Below the pieces are notes generated by a model that was given only the letters and a program-made list of their open reading frames with translations, was not told where the DNA came from and did no database searches. Source: Candidatus Avimicrobium faecavium (GTDB lineage Bacteria; Bacillota; Clostridia; Oscillospirales; Ruminococcaceae). Taken from it: DNA of 35,338 bases. Below, piece after piece: positions 1 through 29,059 of this stretch (positions within the stretch are counted from its first letter, which is position 1; the number at the start of each line of letters is the position of its first letter). The stretch lies in NCBI GenBank assembly GCA_904419105.1, contig CAJFQR010000003.1, positions 1-35,338 on the forward strand. The letters are read 5' to 3'. The translations under genes were made by a program, and so were the position numbers.

Positions 1-264
1 CTCGTAGTTCTCGCCCTCGGCAGCCGCCTTCAGGTTCTCGGCGGTGGTGCCGATGCCCTTCTCCTCAGTGGCCAGTTTGAACCACATCTTGGCGTGCTCC
101 TTCTCGTTGTTGGCGGTCTCCTCGAAGATGGCCGCGATCTGGTTGAAGCCCTCAGCCTTCGCCTTGGAGGCAAAGTAGGTGTACTTGTTGCGGGCCTGGC
201 TCTCGCCGGCAAATGCTGCCCACAGATTGGCTTCGGTCTTGCTGCCCTTGAATTCCATTTTCAT
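1..264 (-). CDS. Rubrerythrin, N-terminal part (runs off window start)
   Basis: Minus-strand translation from ATG at 264: MKMEFKGSKTEANLWAAFAGESQARNKYTYFASKAKAEGFNQIAAIFEETANNEKEHAKMWFK..., typical rubrerythrin ferritin-like N-terminus with ExxAR and EExxH motifs. Confidence 0.92.
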   Translation of the reverse strand, partial: MKMEFKGSKTEANLWAAFAGESQARNKYTYFASKAKAEGFNQIAAIFEETANNEKEHAKMWFKLATEEKGIGTTAENLKAAAEGENYE

Positions 265-280
265 ATACCCCTTTCAAAAA

Positions 281-337
281 TGAGAATGATTACTACTAAT
301 GTATCTTCAGTATAGCATCACCGGCAAATAAAGTCAA
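281..337 (-). promoter_or_regulatory. Rubrerythrin promoter (TTGACT-17-TATACT) with Fur/PerR-like box downstream of the -10
   Basis: -35 at 337-332, -10 at 314-309, 17 bp spacer; TGAGAATGATTACTA at 281-295 resembles the 7-1-7 Fur-family box TGATAATNATTATCA. Confidence 0.6.
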
Positions 338-450
338 CGGCTTTCCCCGTTTTTTTACAGAGTTCACAGCTTTTTCACCGCTCTACAAAGCGGACGAAAT
401 GTGCTATACTGAAAAGGTATCCAGATTTTCACCATCAGGAGGGTGACCCC

Positions 451-1623
451 ATGCTCGCACGCATCCAGCCGTTTTTTGATGACCGTTTCGTCTTTGCCAC
501 ACTGACCCAACGCAAAAAGGGCAGCACCGCCCCCTACAAAAAGGTCCAGGTGCGCCCGTTCCTCCAGTCCGGGGAGCTCTCGTTCCAGCTGACCTACGTC
601 TACGACAAAAAGGTCCTGCACGAAAACCTCACCCCGCCGGAGGCCGCCGAGGCGGTGGCCGGCCTGCTCACCACCACCTTTGACCAGGCCATCCTGCACA
701 CCACCGAACACGACTACCATCTGACCGCCTTCCACGGCCGGCTGAAGATCCGCACCCAGCCCCCGACCAAGGCCGACGGGCAGAACCTCTCCCACGACAA
801 GCGCAAGGCCTATGCCATCCCCGACGGAGAGCCCTGTGACTTTCTGATCCGCCTCGGCGTCATGAACGCCGACGGCCATGTTCTCAAGGCCCGCTACGAC
901 AAATTCCGCCAGATCAACAAGTATCTGGAGATCGTCGCCGACATCGTCGATGAGCTCCCCCGGGACCGGGTGATCCACATCGTCGCCTTCGGCTGCGGCA
1001 AGAGCTACCTCACCTTTGGGCTCTACTACTACCTGGTCAAGCAGCTCCATCTCAATGTCAAGATCATCGGTCTCGATCTCAAGGACGATGTGATCCGCTT
1101 CTGTGAGGAGGTGGCCCGGGAGCTTGAGTACGACGGCCTCACCTTCCTCACCGGCGACATCCAGAGCTACACCGCCGGCGAGCCCATCGATATGGTGGTT
1201 ACGCTGCACGCCTGCGATGTGGCCACCGACGCCGCCATCGTCCAGGCCATCGGCTGGGACTGCCGGGTGCTGCTCACCGTCCCCTGCTGCCAGCACGAGC
1301 TCTTCTCCAAGATCCGCAACGACCGCATGCACCTGCTCACCAAGCACGGCATCCTCAAGGAGCGGCTCTCCGCCCTGATCACCGACGCCATCCGCGGTCA
1401 ACTGCTGGAGGCCTGCGGCTATGATGTGGATGTGATGGAGTTCATCTCGATGGAGCACACCCCAAAGAACCTGATGATCCGCGCGGTGCGAAACGGTCAC
1501 CCCGACCGGAAAAAGTATGCCGAGTATCTCACCTTCGCGAAGGACTGGTCCATCCGGCCCTATCTCGAGGAGGAACTGGTGCGCATCGGCCGCATCCCCG
1601 CCCGCTCTCCGGAGGAGCGCTGA
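451..1623 (+). CDS. SAM-dependent methyltransferase (Methyltransf_32-like)
   Basis: 390 aa ORF with motif I-like VIHIVAFGCGKSYLTFGLYYYL and the downstream VTLHACDVATDAAI motif. Confidence 0.8.
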   Translation: MLARIQPFFDDRFVFATLTQRKKGSTAPYKKVQVRPFLQSGELSFQLTYVYDKKVLHENLTPPEAAEAVAGLLTTTFDQAILHTTEHDYHLTAFHGRLKIRTQPPTKADGQNLSHDKRKAYAIPDGEPCDFLIRLGVMNADGHVLKARYDKFRQINKYLEIVADIVDELPRDRVIHIVAFGCGKSYLTFGLYYYLVKQLHLNVKIIGLDLKDDVIRFCEEVARELEYDGLTFLTGDIQSYTAGEPIDMVVTLHACDVATDAAIVQAIGWDCRVLLTVPCCQHELFSKIRNDRMHLLTKHGILKERLSALITDAIRGQLLEACGYDVDVMEFISMEHTPKNLMIRAVRNGHPDRKKYAEYLTFAKDWSIRPYLEEELVRIGRIPARSPEER

Positions 1624-1640
1624 CCTCTTTTCAGCACATA

Positions 1641-1681
1641 AAAACCGGGTGCCCACAAGATGTGGACAACCCGGTTTTTTT
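1641..1681. terminator. Rho-independent terminator between convergent genes
   Basis: AAAACCGGGT...ACCCGGTTTTTTTC inverted repeat. Confidence 0.8.
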
Positions 1682-1754
1682 CATCCTGCGGTCTTTTTCC
1701 AAAAGGCAGCGGGGATTTTTTGTTTATGCACAGGCGCAGGCTTTCGCCGGCTCC

Positions 1755-3530
<1,776 letters not shown>

Positions 3531-3590
3531 TTTTCTACACTCCTCTATCTCTGTCCCGTCTGCCGGGGTGTGTTTGGTTGATTTCTTCGC

Positions 3591-4904
3591 TCATTCGCCG
3601 TCCAGCTGAGCGTCCACAATCTCGTCGTAGAGGCGGTCGGCCTCCCGGCGCAGCAGCGCCTCCTCCAGCTCGGCAAACGGGACCTCCTGCTCCTCGCCGG
3701 TGTCCATATTCTTGAGCCGGGCGGCGCCGGCGGCCAGCTCGCTGTCGCCGATGACCATCGTATACCGTGCGCCGATCTTGTTGGCGTACTTCAACTGGGC
3801 CTTGAGGCTGCGCTCCATCAGGTCGGTTTCCGCCACAAAGCCCGCCTCCCGCAGGCTCTCCGCCAGCACGCTGCACCGCACCGAGGCCTCGGTGCCCAGC
3901 GGCACCAGACAGACGTCACAGCGGGGCTCCTCCGGCAGCGGGGCGCCGCAGGCCTCCATCACCAGCTTGATCCGCTCCAGCCCCATGCCAAAGCCCACCG
4001 CCGGCTGGCTCTGGCCGCCCATGAGTTCGATGAGTCCATCGTACCGGCCACCGCCGCAGACGGTACCCTGGGCGCCGATGGTCTCGGTCTTGAACTCGAA
4101 CACCGTCTTGGTGTAGTAGTCCAGTCCCCGGACGATGGTCGGGTCCACCTCGTAGGCGATGCCCATGGCCTCCAGCCGCTTTTTCAGCTCTTCAAAGTGA
4201 TCCCGGCACTCGTCGCAGAGGTAGTCCAGCACGATGGGGGCGTGCTCCGCCAGCTCGTGGCAGCGTTCCTCCTTGCAGTCGAGGATCCGCAGCGGGTTGC
4301 GCTCCAACCGCTCCTGGCAGGTGGGGCAGAGCTCATCATAGTGGGCGCCGAAGTAGTCCTTGAGCGCCTGCTGGAACTTGGGCCGGCAGTTGGGGCAGCC
4401 GATGGAGTTGATGAACAGCTTGATGCTCTCCACCCCAAGGGTGCGCAATGCCAGGTCCGCCAGCCCGATGACCTCGGCGTCGGCGGCGGAGCTCTTCGCG
4501 CCGAACAGCTCGACGCCGAACTGGTGGAACTCCCGATACCGTCCGGCCTGTGCCTTCTCATAGCGGAAACAGGGGGTGATGTAGCTCAGCTTCACCGGCA
4601 GGGCCTCGGCCAGCAGCCCCCGCTCCAGCGCCGCCCGGACGGCACCGGCAGTGCCCTCGGGCTTCAGCGTGATGGAGCGCCCCTTTTTGTCCTCAAAGGT
4701 GTACATCTCCTTCTGGACCACATCGGTGGTGTCCCCCACCGACCTCACGAACAGTTCGGTGTGCTCAAAGGTCGGGGTACGGATCTCCCCAAAGCCGTGC
4801 AGCTCACCGATGTGCATCAGCGTATCCTCAATATACCGCATCTTGGCGCTCTCCGCCGGCACAAAGTCCTGGGTGCCCCGGGGGGCCTTGGTGATCAATG
4901 CCAT
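3591..4904 (-). CDS. hisS: Histidyl-tRNA synthetase
   Basis: 437 aa; APRGTQDFVP...KPEGTAGAVRA...GLDYYTKTVFEF motifs. Confidence 0.98.
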   Translation of the reverse strand: MALITKAPRGTQDFVPAESAKMRYIEDTLMHIGELHGFGEIRTPTFEHTELFVRSVGDTTDVVQKEMYTFEDKKGRSITLKPEGTAGAVRAALERGLLAEALPVKLSYITPCFRYEKAQAGRYREFHQFGVELFGAKSSAADAEVIGLADLALRTLGVESIKLFINSIGCPNCRPKFQQALKDYFGAHYDELCPTCQERLERNPLRILDCKEERCHELAEHAPIVLDYLCDECRDHFEELKKRLEAMGIAYEVDPTIVRGLDYYTKTVFEFKTETIGAQGTVCGGGRYDGLIELMGGQSQPAVGFGMGLERIKLVMEACGAPLPEEPRCDVCLVPLGTEASVRCSVLAESLREAGFVAETDLMERSLKAQLKYANKIGARYTMVIGDSELAAGAARLKNMDTGEEQEVPFAELEEALLRREADRLYDEIVDAQLDGE

Positions 4905-4986
4905 TTGCTACCATCTTCCTTCCGTTGTGTGATATCCGGCCGTTTCCACTGAAAAACGGCCCGCTGCATTCGCTTTTTTATTATAA

Positions 4987-5263
4987 CAAAAACTCCGCCT
5001 CCTTGCCACCGGCTGCCGCCGGGGACAAGGGACGGAGAAAAAACCGTGGTGCCACCCTTGTTGAGCCGCTCACGCGGCCCCACTTGTTGCCCTTTAACGC
5101 AGGGATACGCGTCCGCTTCACCGGTGGTGCGCGGGCGGGCTGAACGGGTGTCCTTCCCTCCGGGGGTGCTGCGCCGGGCCGCTCTCAGCCGCGGCGGCCC
5201 GTCTCTGTGCGCGTCCCGGAGCTACTGCTCCCGTATAAACGCCTCTATTTGTATCATTCGGCC
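4987..5263 (-). promoter_or_regulatory. T-box riboswitch upstream of hisS-aspS (Asp-type specifier)
   Basis: T-box motif AAGGGTGGCACCACGG (5059-5044, minus); GC-rich terminator hairpin plus TTTTT at 5037-4987; Stem I with internal loop GGGAAGGACA carrying GAC at 5152-5150. Confidence 0.9.
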
Positions 5264-26112: not shown

Positions 26113-27003
26113 TCACTTGGTAAACCGTTCGCGGTAGGCACGGCGGGCCCGGGATGGCGAGATGCCAAAGGCCTCCTTGTACACCCGGGAGAGATGGAAC
26201 GGCGAGGAGAAACCAAGATCCGAGGCCACCAGCTCCAGCGTCAGGTTGGAGGTGTTGATGAGCTCCTCCGCCAGACGGATCTTCAGCCCCATAAAGTACC
26301 GGCTCGGCGAGGTGCCCATAATCTCGTTGAAGGTCTTGTTCAGGCGGCTCTCGCTGGTCTCCAGGGCCTTAATCATCGCATTGACCCGCAGCGGCCGGTC
26401 CATACCGGCCATCGCCAGCTCCACCGCCCGTTCAATCAGGTCGGCCTGGTTCTGGGTCACCGGGTATTTTTCCGCGGCGGCGGCGCAGACCTTTTCCGGA
26501 ATCAGATCCCGCAGGGCCAGCATTATGGCCGCCTGGAGAAGAATCGTCCCGCCAAACTGCCGGGCGTCCATCTGCCGGATGCCGATGTCAAGCAGTTCCT
26601 CCATCCGGCCGGTGTCGCTCAGCGGGAACACCAGCTTGCCCGCCTCCCGGCTGATGCCGCAGAGGGTCCGTTCGAGGTAAACCGGTTCCACCAGGAAGTG
26701 GACCGAGCGGCAGCGCAGCGCATCCCCGTCCTGCGGGGCCAGTGTGAACGGCCGGAACGGCAGGAGCAGCACGGCGCTGCCCGCCTTCAGCGTGCCGGTG
26801 AGCCCATCCTGCCCGACCACGGCCGAGCCGCCGGTGCACAGAAGGAGTTCAAAATCGCTGATGACATACTCCGCCTCATTGCGTTCTCCCTGCCATTCAC
26901 AGGTTTCAACATTGCGAATCGCAAAATGCAGCCGGTCCAGTCCGCCACTGTGGGATCTGCGCGCGGTCGGGACCTTGTGCTCTTCCAATCGTTTCAGTGC
27001 CAT
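26113..27003 (-). CDS. AraC family transcriptional regulator
   Basis: ATG at 27003; C-terminal LTLELVASDLGFSSPFHLSRVYKEAFGISPSRARRAYRERF HTH. Confidence 0.93.
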   Translation of the reverse strand: MALKRLEEHKVPTARRSHSGGLDRLHFAIRNVETCEWQGERNEAEYVISDFELLLCTGGSAVVGQDGLTGTLKAGSAVLLLPFRPFTLAPQDGDALRCRSVHFLVEPVYLERTLCGISREAGKLVFPLSDTGRMEELLDIGIRQMDARQFGGTILLQAAIMLALRDLIPEKVCAAAAEKYPVTQNQADLIERAVELAMAGMDRPLRVNAMIKALETSESRLNKTFNEIMGTSPSRYFMGLKIRLAEELINTSNLTLELVASDLGFSSPFHLSRVYKEAFGISPSRARRAYRERFTK

Positions 27004-27031
27004 AACGTATCGCCTCCACTTTGTTAAGTCT

Positions 27032-27060
27032 ATTATACCGGAAAATGTCCCCAGCTTCAA
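27032..27060 (-). promoter_or_regulatory. Promoter of the AraC regulator (TTGAAG-17-TATAAT)
   Basis: -35 27060-27055, -10 27037-27032. Confidence 0.6.
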
Positions 27061-27348: not shown

Positions 27349-27610
27349 CAGAGGGGAACGCCCCTCTGCCGGGTGCGGAGAGAAAGGCTGTCGGGACCAG
27401 ACCTCCGCATCCGGCAGAAGAGGGGGGCTCTTCGCCCCCCTTCCCCTGTCTCACCCCCGCCGACGGAACGGGGGCTGTTTTTAGATTTGGCAGAAGCTAT
27501 CAGCTGATGCTTCTATCCGTCCACGATGTTTTAAGCGTCAGCTTAAAACTCATAGGGATTGGACCGCGAGTTTGCGCAGCAAACTCGTAGGGAGGTAAGC
27601 GAAGCTTACC
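27349..27610. repeat. Dense array of consecutive palindromes/hairpins
   Basis: CAGAGGGGaacgCCCCTCTG (27349-27368); CTGCCGGGTGCGGAG...CTCCGCATCCGGCAG (27366-27417); GGGGGGC-tcttc-GCCCCCC; CCCCCG...CGGGGG; AGAAGC..GCTTCT; GTTTTAAGCgtcaGCTTAAAAC (27528-27549); CGAGTTTGCgcaGCAAACTCG (27567-27587); GGTAAGCgaaGCTTACC (27594-27610). Confidence 0.85.
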
Positions 27611-28706
27611 GACCGGTGTCAGGGTTTACCTTACCATCGTCGGTGGTGGTGTCGTCCTTGTCCTCGGTGACGGTCTTCTCGTCCAGCTCTACATCGGAGA
27701 CAGCGTAGCTGCTCAGAGTGCGGGTGCGGATTCTCCAGGCCTCGTAGTCCTCGTCCCACTCGGCATCTACATCGACAGCGCCGTCAGCGGATACGCCGTA
27801 GATGAAGGAATCCTCAGGAGCGTAGATGTAGAGGTAACCGTTGCGGTTGAAGGAAGGAGTACCGGAGAAGGTCAGGAAGTCGATGTTGGCATAGCTGTAC
27901 ATGTCAGCGAATTCCTTGTTGTGGTTGGTATTCCAGGACAGGTTCAGGCGGCCCTGACCGGTCACATTGACGGTGAACATGGCCTCATCGCCGAACTCGA
28001 TGTCGATCTCGCCCAGGTCGTCCTCAAAAGCAACAATACCGGTGAAGCCTACATCCAGAGTGTCATCACCGTCAAACTTCTTAACGATGTTGTCGTTAGT
28101 GCCATCGGGAGCGTAGGAGATGTTTACCGCATAGCTATGCTCGGCGTTGCGGGCACGGGCAGCAGTGGTGCCAACCTTAATGGTACCAGCCAGGTCAGCA
28201 ATCTTGTTGGTGTCATTCTCAGGCAGAGTGATAACAACAGACCAGATACGGCCATCAACACCCTCATCAGTTACATCGGGGCGATCATCAGATACATCAT
28301 AGTTTACAAGTTTTACATCAACCTCGGCATCGCCCTCGTCCCAGTCAGCATAAGCGCGCACGGACTTGTCATAATCGAAGTCGTTGTTGTACTTGTACCA
28401 CCTGATTTCATCGGTGCCACCTACATCGAAGGTATCGTTGGCGCCATTTCCTTCTTTCCAGATGGACAGCGGGATAGCGACCTGGTCACCGCCCTCAAGC
28501 TGCACATCCTCAGTAATATCAAAAATCGAGGTGGCCTTACCGTCAGCATTCAGCAGGAACATATAGTTGTTCTCAGCAATAGCATCACCAACGCTGCCTC
28601 TCAGACCAATGACAGGTGTTACATCACCAGTATCGGCAGCAAAGGCAACAGTACCCATACCCGCAGCCATAACGGCAGCCAGAGTAAGAGCAAGAATCTT
28701 CTTCAT
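27606..28706 (-). CDS. Secreted acidic surface protein of unknown function ending in NPDTGR
   Basis: MKKILALTLAAVMAAGMGTVAFA-ADTG signal peptide; SD AGGAGG; Thr/Asp-rich C-terminal linker then KVNPDTGR stop. Confidence 0.8.
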   Translation of the reverse strand: MKKILALTLAAVMAAGMGTVAFAADTGDVTPVIGLRGSVGDAIAENNYMFLLNADGKATSIFDITEDVQLEGGDQVAIPLSIWKEGNGANDTFDVGGTDEIRWYKYNNDFDYDKSVRAYADWDEGDAEVDVKLVNYDVSDDRPDVTDEGVDGRIWSVVITLPENDTNKIADLAGTIKVGTTAARARNAEHSYAVNISYAPDGTNDNIVKKFDGDDTLDVGFTGIVAFEDDLGEIDIEFGDEAMFTVNVTGQGRLNLSWNTNHNKEFADMYSYANIDFLTFSGTPSFNRNGYLYIYAPEDSFIYGVSADGAVDVDAEWDEDYEAWRIRTRTLSSYAVSDVELDEKTVTEDKDDTTTDDGKVNPDTGR

Positions 28707-28782
28707 TGTCATTTTCCTCCTAAAAGTTTTTCTCACAATCAACAGGCTCTCCCGTCGAATGAGATCCTGTCGTTGTGATGCC

Positions 28783-28810
28783 ATTATACCCCCCCCCGGC
28801 ACTTTGTCAA
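28783..28810 (-). promoter_or_regulatory. Promoter of the secreted protein gene: TTGACA-16-TATAAT with a G9 homopolymer in the spacer
   Basis: -35 28810-28805; spacer AAGTGCCGGGGGGGGG 28804-28789; -10 28788-28783; A/T-rich UP-like sequence upstream. Confidence 0.85.
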
Positions 28811-29059
28811 CCCCTCTTTGATATTTTTTTGTAATTTTTCTGTAATTTCTCCGTCTGCGGCGGACTTTTTTGCCGGGTTTGCGGTCTGTTCCTGCATTTT
28901 GCAGCGGATTCGGCTGTTTCTGCGCCCCGATTTGCCGCGATCCCTGCATTTTTCTGCCCGGCTCCGACCCCTCTGTCATTCCCCAACCGGTGGAAAAGTG
29001 GATTTCCCCCGGTGGAAAACCCCGGATACCCCCGCCCGCAAATTTTTTTCAAAAAGCCC

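Follow-up and report, generated by a model that had tools for sequence, protein, structure and literature searches.

The window analysed here, a 35,338-bp stretch of a gut Clostridia genome, contains a gene for a predicted secreted protein whose promoter carries nine consecutive Gs between its -35 and -10 hexamers, which raises the question of whether this run is a phase-variation switch. The promoter occupies positions 28783-28810 of the minus strand and reads TTGACA-AAGTGCC-GGGGGGGGG-TATAAT. Sequence reading and motif matching show that both the -35 hexamer (TTGACA, 28805..28810) and the -10 hexamer (TATAAT, 28783..28788) match the consensus exactly, and the sequence, coordinates and strand given in a first-pass annotation are all confirmed. 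The 5' half of the spacer, AAGTGCC (28798..28804), recurs as AAxTGC(C) across most paralogs and congeners, while the 3' half is the G9 tract (28789..28797), which abuts the -10 hexamer and is the presumed site of slippage. A recount (7 + 9) returns the 16-bp spacer claimed earlier, and as in porA-type loci the mononucleotide tract lies entirely inside the spacer. The window contains no other homopolymer of at least 8 of any base, and the next-longest G-runs are of 6 (three cases). A ribosome-binding site, AGGAGG, can be read directly at 28716..28721. We consider that G9 is probably a slipped-strand contingency element (probability about 0.82), controlling transcription of the secreted-protein gene through the -35/-10 spacing. 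The switch originally proposed is supported at the sequence level by its recurrence before surface genes, the confinement of long tracts to spacers, differences in tract length, and a 17-bp spacing where the G-run is absent.

The G9 promoter is one of about nine copies of one cassette in the window's genome (G000), which was compared with two congeners (G001 and G002), giving one genome per species. Eight strict copies were found in G000, with G6, G8, G9 or G10, and a ninth has TATACT as its -10 hexamer. Copies in G001 carry G7-G11 and those in G002 G9-G11, the range in the congeners being G5-G11 with the inclusion of one G5 copy, and further copies in the genus have variant hexamers (TATACT or TTGACG). 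Because G000 is an 88%-complete MAG, its tract lengths may, taken singly, err by one. The fragmentation of this assembly into 158 contigs and the awkwardness of sequencing G-tracts (PMC9187656) could also suggest that the promoter is a product of chance or of assembly. However, zero matches to it are expected in shuffled sequence (100 shuffles, up to 2 mismatches), and the pattern recurs in many independent assemblies and in the isolate genome G001, which matches 'Hydrogenoanaerobacterium saccharovorans' An564. Chance or artefact is thus refuted for the pattern and retains almost no probability, although single tract lengths stay uncertain. The isolate comes from chicken.

Long G-runs are nearly confined to promoter spacers in this genus. 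All 7 distinct tracts of at least nine Gs in G000 are directly enclosed by a -35 and a -10 hexamer, as are 6/6 and 9/12 in the congeners, for a total of 22/25. The three exceptional tracts are all in G002: GTATAC/TATA flanks two of them, and the third is part of an ispE-like coding sequence. Because consensus spacers make up in total only ~0.03% of the stranded genome, this confinement is not due to chance, and a tract of slippage-prone length that is rare outside such spacers is a property of porA-type loci.

The genes behind these promoters are predominantly those of exported proteins. Within the genus, 21 of the 23 polyG promoters with at least seven Gs lie upstream of a signal-peptide gene, and the remaining two lie before a single orthologous APC-type permease; since the 21 mostly serve one paralogous family, these counts are not independent. 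Where at least seven Gs abut TATAAT in other genera and families, surface genes follow in 13/19 cases by inspection and 14/19 by script, mainly lipoproteins, secreted proteins and a pseudopilin. The corresponding values for control promoters, which are ordinary 17-bp promoters of G000 and G001 only, are 4/31 and 7/31 (p = 1e-4 and 9e-4). Signal peptides were called by a simple hydropathy rule rather than a trained predictor, and on these predictions the products are of the surface or secreted kind found at porA-type loci. The predominance of one paralogous family also allows a neutral account, in which the G-runs are hypermutable relics that were co-inherited during duplication of the family and are now drifting, with no selection for switching, and C50 and C96 are indeed clear duplicates. 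Yet the G-run has been kept in three species, also precedes unrelated genes (the permease and secreted families other than this one) and hardly occurs in the rest of the genome, and polyG promoters of unrelated genera favour surface genes too, all of which makes neutral drift very unlikely.

A switch that acts through spacing predicts that spacing should vary, and it does. The spacers of 20 polyG promoters range from 11 to 18 bp with 5/20 at 17-18 bp, compared with 83/110 among the other consensus promoters of G000 and G001, 69 of which are exactly 17 bp (Fisher p = 2.6e-5); some of the controls with a spacing of 8, 20 or 22 bp probably match by chance, which only blurs the control distribution. 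Two promoters with the TTGACG variant have spacers of 18 and 19 bp, extending the polyG range to 11-19 bp. Among paralogous and syntenic promoters, the flanking spacer bases are kept while the length of the tract differs. For example, an alignment of ~200 bp around the C50 and C96 promoters of G000 contains many substitutions and a single indel, G8 versus G10, and two G001 promoters (L015 and L018) with nearly identical upstream sequence differ in the tract, G9 versus CG11. Between species, C97 (G9, 15 bp) differs from the syntenic G001 C2:231331 (G10, 16 bp), behind which the genes are collinear, and C154 (G9, 16 bp) from G001 C1:356361 (G7, 14 bp), where the two-gene operon is 63-69% identical. 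The orthologous permease promoters have spacers of 16 bp and 11 bp, and their proteins are 78% identical. All of these are differences between paralogs or between species, with one genome for each species; a search of viral contigs yielded no additional strain. Two further candidates were rejected: G002 C6:16903 (spacer 11) as a third permease-promoter copy, a different gene being located downstream, and G001 C1:445082, which neighbouring genes place ~11 kb away in the collinear block, as the ortholog of the window locus.

Three promoters of the family have no G-run (C68, G001 C2:204459 and G002 C15). They are apparently orthologous, having a leader sequence in common and, in the case of C68 and the G002 copy, an upstream gene as well, and their spacers are unrelated to one another in sequence and each exactly 17 bp long. 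On these comparisons, selection for a fixed spacing can be seen only at promoters that lack the G-run, because the three are all 17 bp while the syntenic polyG loci differ.

Upstream of the window promoter lie two direct copies of ATTACA on the minus strand, a distal one at 28841..28846 and a proximal one at 28830..28835. Among the 16 paralogous promoters with upstream DNA available, the proximal copy is found in 16/16 at -25 (or -24) from the start of the -35 hexamer and the distal copy in 14/16 at -36 (or -35), so that an ATTACR pair with 11-bp spacing stands at a constant distance in 14/16 and its proximal member alone in the remaining two. This region had been annotated as an UP-like element; its A-rich DNA is real, but the repeats, 11 bp apart and at the same position in 14/16 paralogs, bear a closer resemblance to a binding site of phased direct repeats common to the family. 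Direct repeats of the OmpR/PhoB type have a similar phasing, an analogy that we offer as a lead only. Since the repeats are shared across the family, a common regulator could act on all members, with each G-run setting individual responsiveness.

The same repeats bear on another explanation, in which the G-run and AAxTGCC form a binding or DNA-shape element for the family regulator and the differences in length reflect drift that is tolerated. That paralogs and species alike retain AAxTGC(C) next to the tract fits such an element, and the phased ATTACA pair makes a shared regulator likely. Its length should stay constant, however, whereas G5-G11 and spacers of 11-19 bp are found, some of them at spacings where sigma-A should barely work. 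In addition, a related ATTACA pair lies upstream of the C68 promoter, which has no G-run, and in unrelated genera polyG abuts TATAAT with other 5' spacer halves. A fixed regulatory spacer is accordingly an unlikely explanation.

Under the slippage switch that we prefer, replication slippage would add or remove Gs in the G9 run, and the change in G number would alter the -35/-10 spacing so that sigma-A transcription of the secreted-protein gene is switched or graded. The usual spacer optimum is 17 +/- 1 bp. The window copy, at 16 bp, would be intermediate; one additional G would bring it to the optimal 17 bp, and the loss of two or more would leave it nearly off. Among the other G000 copies, C96 (17 bp) is predicted to be near-optimal, C1, C100, C154 and C21 (16 bp) intermediate like the window, C50 and C97 (15 bp) weak, and C65 (13 bp) off. 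In length, G9 falls close to the lower limit of tracts known to slip fast. The roughly nine cassette copies, most of them driving paralogous NPxTGR proteins and one a permease, would vary independently, and a population could therefore display many combinations of surface proteins. We infer that the tract slips within a clone, that spacing affects transcription, and that the products are displayed at the surface to the benefit of the cell.

The driven gene (27606..28706, minus strand) encodes a 366-aa protein, predicted to be secreted, in which a signal peptide (MKKILALTLAAVMAAGMGTVAFA) is followed by a beta-rich body and the ending ...GKVNPDTGR-stop. It belongs to a paralogous family of secreted products with about 11-14 genes in G000, whose members end invariantly in NP[DNS]TGR; NPDTG is invariant at the very C-terminus of 19/19 aligned members. 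The product had been described as secreted and sortase-motif-like. It does have the N-terminal signal peptide of the sortase-anchored class; its NPDTG could be a sorting pentapeptide, and sortase-domain proteins are encoded in G000, G001 and G002, but all aligned members stop right at NPDTGR with no hydrophobic stretch and no basic tail. With this C-terminus the NPxTGR protein falls outside the canonical sortase substrates, and the NP[DNS]TGR ending without a hydrophobic tail may act as an atypical C-terminal signal for sorting or attachment. Searches of Pfam and NCBIfam returned no family for the protein, only weak sub-threshold matches (to the signal peptide); an I-set match (E = 0.0035) was below the cut-off and was not used. 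The AlphaFold model is of moderate quality (pLDDT 72, pTM 0.52), and its best Foldseek match, ankyrin ZU5, was rejected as an assignment (E = 4e-3, TM about 0.25). Downstream on the same strand is an AraC-family regulator gene (26113-27060, minus) with weak similarity to TIGR04094, a model for the YSIRK-targeted surface-antigen regulator.

Folding with ViennaRNA places a stem-loop in the 5' leader (28734..28777, minus strand), with an outer CAAC/GTTG stem and the loop TCGACGGGAGAG, and similar hairpins with differing stems before most paralogs. The loops in the family are TGGAGAG or TCGACGGG while the stems change, and the hairpin could serve as an mRNA stabiliser or a protein-binding site; Rfam gave nothing above chance near the promoter or leader. 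Behind the driven gene are three palindromic hairpins (27522..27610, minus strand), the first of which encloses the stop codon, as is usual behind NPxTGR genes. One to several hairpins of common design (CGAGTTTTnnn-loop-nnnAAAACATCG / GAGTTTGC..GCAAACTC), with stems that vary yet stay paired, also follow the genes of C50, C68, C96, C97, C105, C140 and C154 and genes in G001/G002 (L169-L188). A strict scan of the ~350 kb examined located such palindromic hairpins only behind NPxTGR genes, and genes might be exchanged among paralogs at these sites. At G000 C65 (L175) and C96 (L176) and at G001 C1:349584 and C1:356361 (L180), the upstream genes are syntenic with 89-91% identity, and different NPxTGR family members stand behind the promoters, a comparison which suggests that the genes have been shuffled between expression sites. 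A wider and more tentative reading is that of a genus-wide combinatorial surface phasome, in which one cassette (ATTACA pair, TTGACA, AAxTGCC, slipping G-run, TATAAT and leader hairpin) would head many NPxTGR expression sites and genes would be exchanged between them, so that slippage and shuffling, perhaps helped by the family-specific palindromes, together diversify the surface. We hold this to be possible but doubtful.

By analogy, the multi-locus pattern best matches the slipped-strand contingency loci of the porA, opc and Treponema pallidum tp0126 type. In Neisseria meningitidis porA, as here, poly-G lies between the hexamers of a surface-protein promoter with distance as the control variable, and transcription is lost once the spacing falls below the optimal 17 bp (PMC7864442). 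Unlike the present case, porA is a single locus in a Gram-negative pathogen, whereas here a gut Clostridia genus has one cassette before many paralogous genes, and nearly all copies have both hexamers at exact consensus. The closest family-wide precedent is found in T. pallidum, in which poly-G promoters serve several paralogous surface-protein genes: tp0126 has poly-G between -35 and -10, and tprE/G/J/L are similarly equipped, tprL having 7-11 Gs within an isolate and expression that depends on length (PMC7864442). The proteins are unrelated, the tprL tract has another geometry, ending 4 nt before the start site, and clonal variation and reporter effects have been measured in T. pallidum (PMC7864442). 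Bifidobacterium breve UCC2003 is, like our organism, a gut commensal, and its G10-G11 pilus tracts switch surface structures by slippage in vivo, G11 more than G10, with modulation in mice; the characterised tracts of this actinobacterium are intragenic and act by frameshift rather than transcriptionally, although the same paper also mentions G-tracts in promoter spacers (PMC9187656). In the hif fimbriae of Haemophilus influenzae, as cited in that paper, repeat number likewise sets the -35/-10 spacing of surface genes, but the repeats in that account are TA dinucleotides in one divergent (overlapping) promoter, not a mononucleotide and not a multi-locus cassette (PMC9187656). The poly-G promoter-spacer arrangement is thus known in kind and unusually extensive here; no report of a multi-locus poly-G promoter system was found in the open-access literature searched, subscription journals being outside its coverage.

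Comparable tracts were observed elsewhere. In Streptococcus azizii 12-5202 (L088), the minus strand at ~2397 reads TTGACAAAATGCC-G8-TATAAT with a 15-bp spacer upstream of cpsB/cpsC-like capsule genes, making it a candidate phase-variable capsule promoter. Very long G-tracts precede TATAAT in the spacers of other genera (L061, at G312:C7:5500, and L042, in G368; G15 and G12). A second style, (G/A)TATAC-Gn-TATA(AT), occurs at G347:C31:54392, C34:10798 and C34:241388, being a promoter all three times, and at G002:C17:276 and C20:15471, with one G002 copy immediately preceding the start codon of an ABC transporter.

What is known of phase variation in gut Firmicutes concerns mainly DNA inversion. 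If the proposed switch is real, commensal Clostridia would share the transcriptional slippage of Neisseria and Treponema, in a genus that includes the sequenced isolate An564. An undescribed family of secreted proteins would then be a likely target of pressure from the host or from phages, and at least eight Gs abutting TATAAT would provide a simple signature for phase-variable surface genes in metagenomes.
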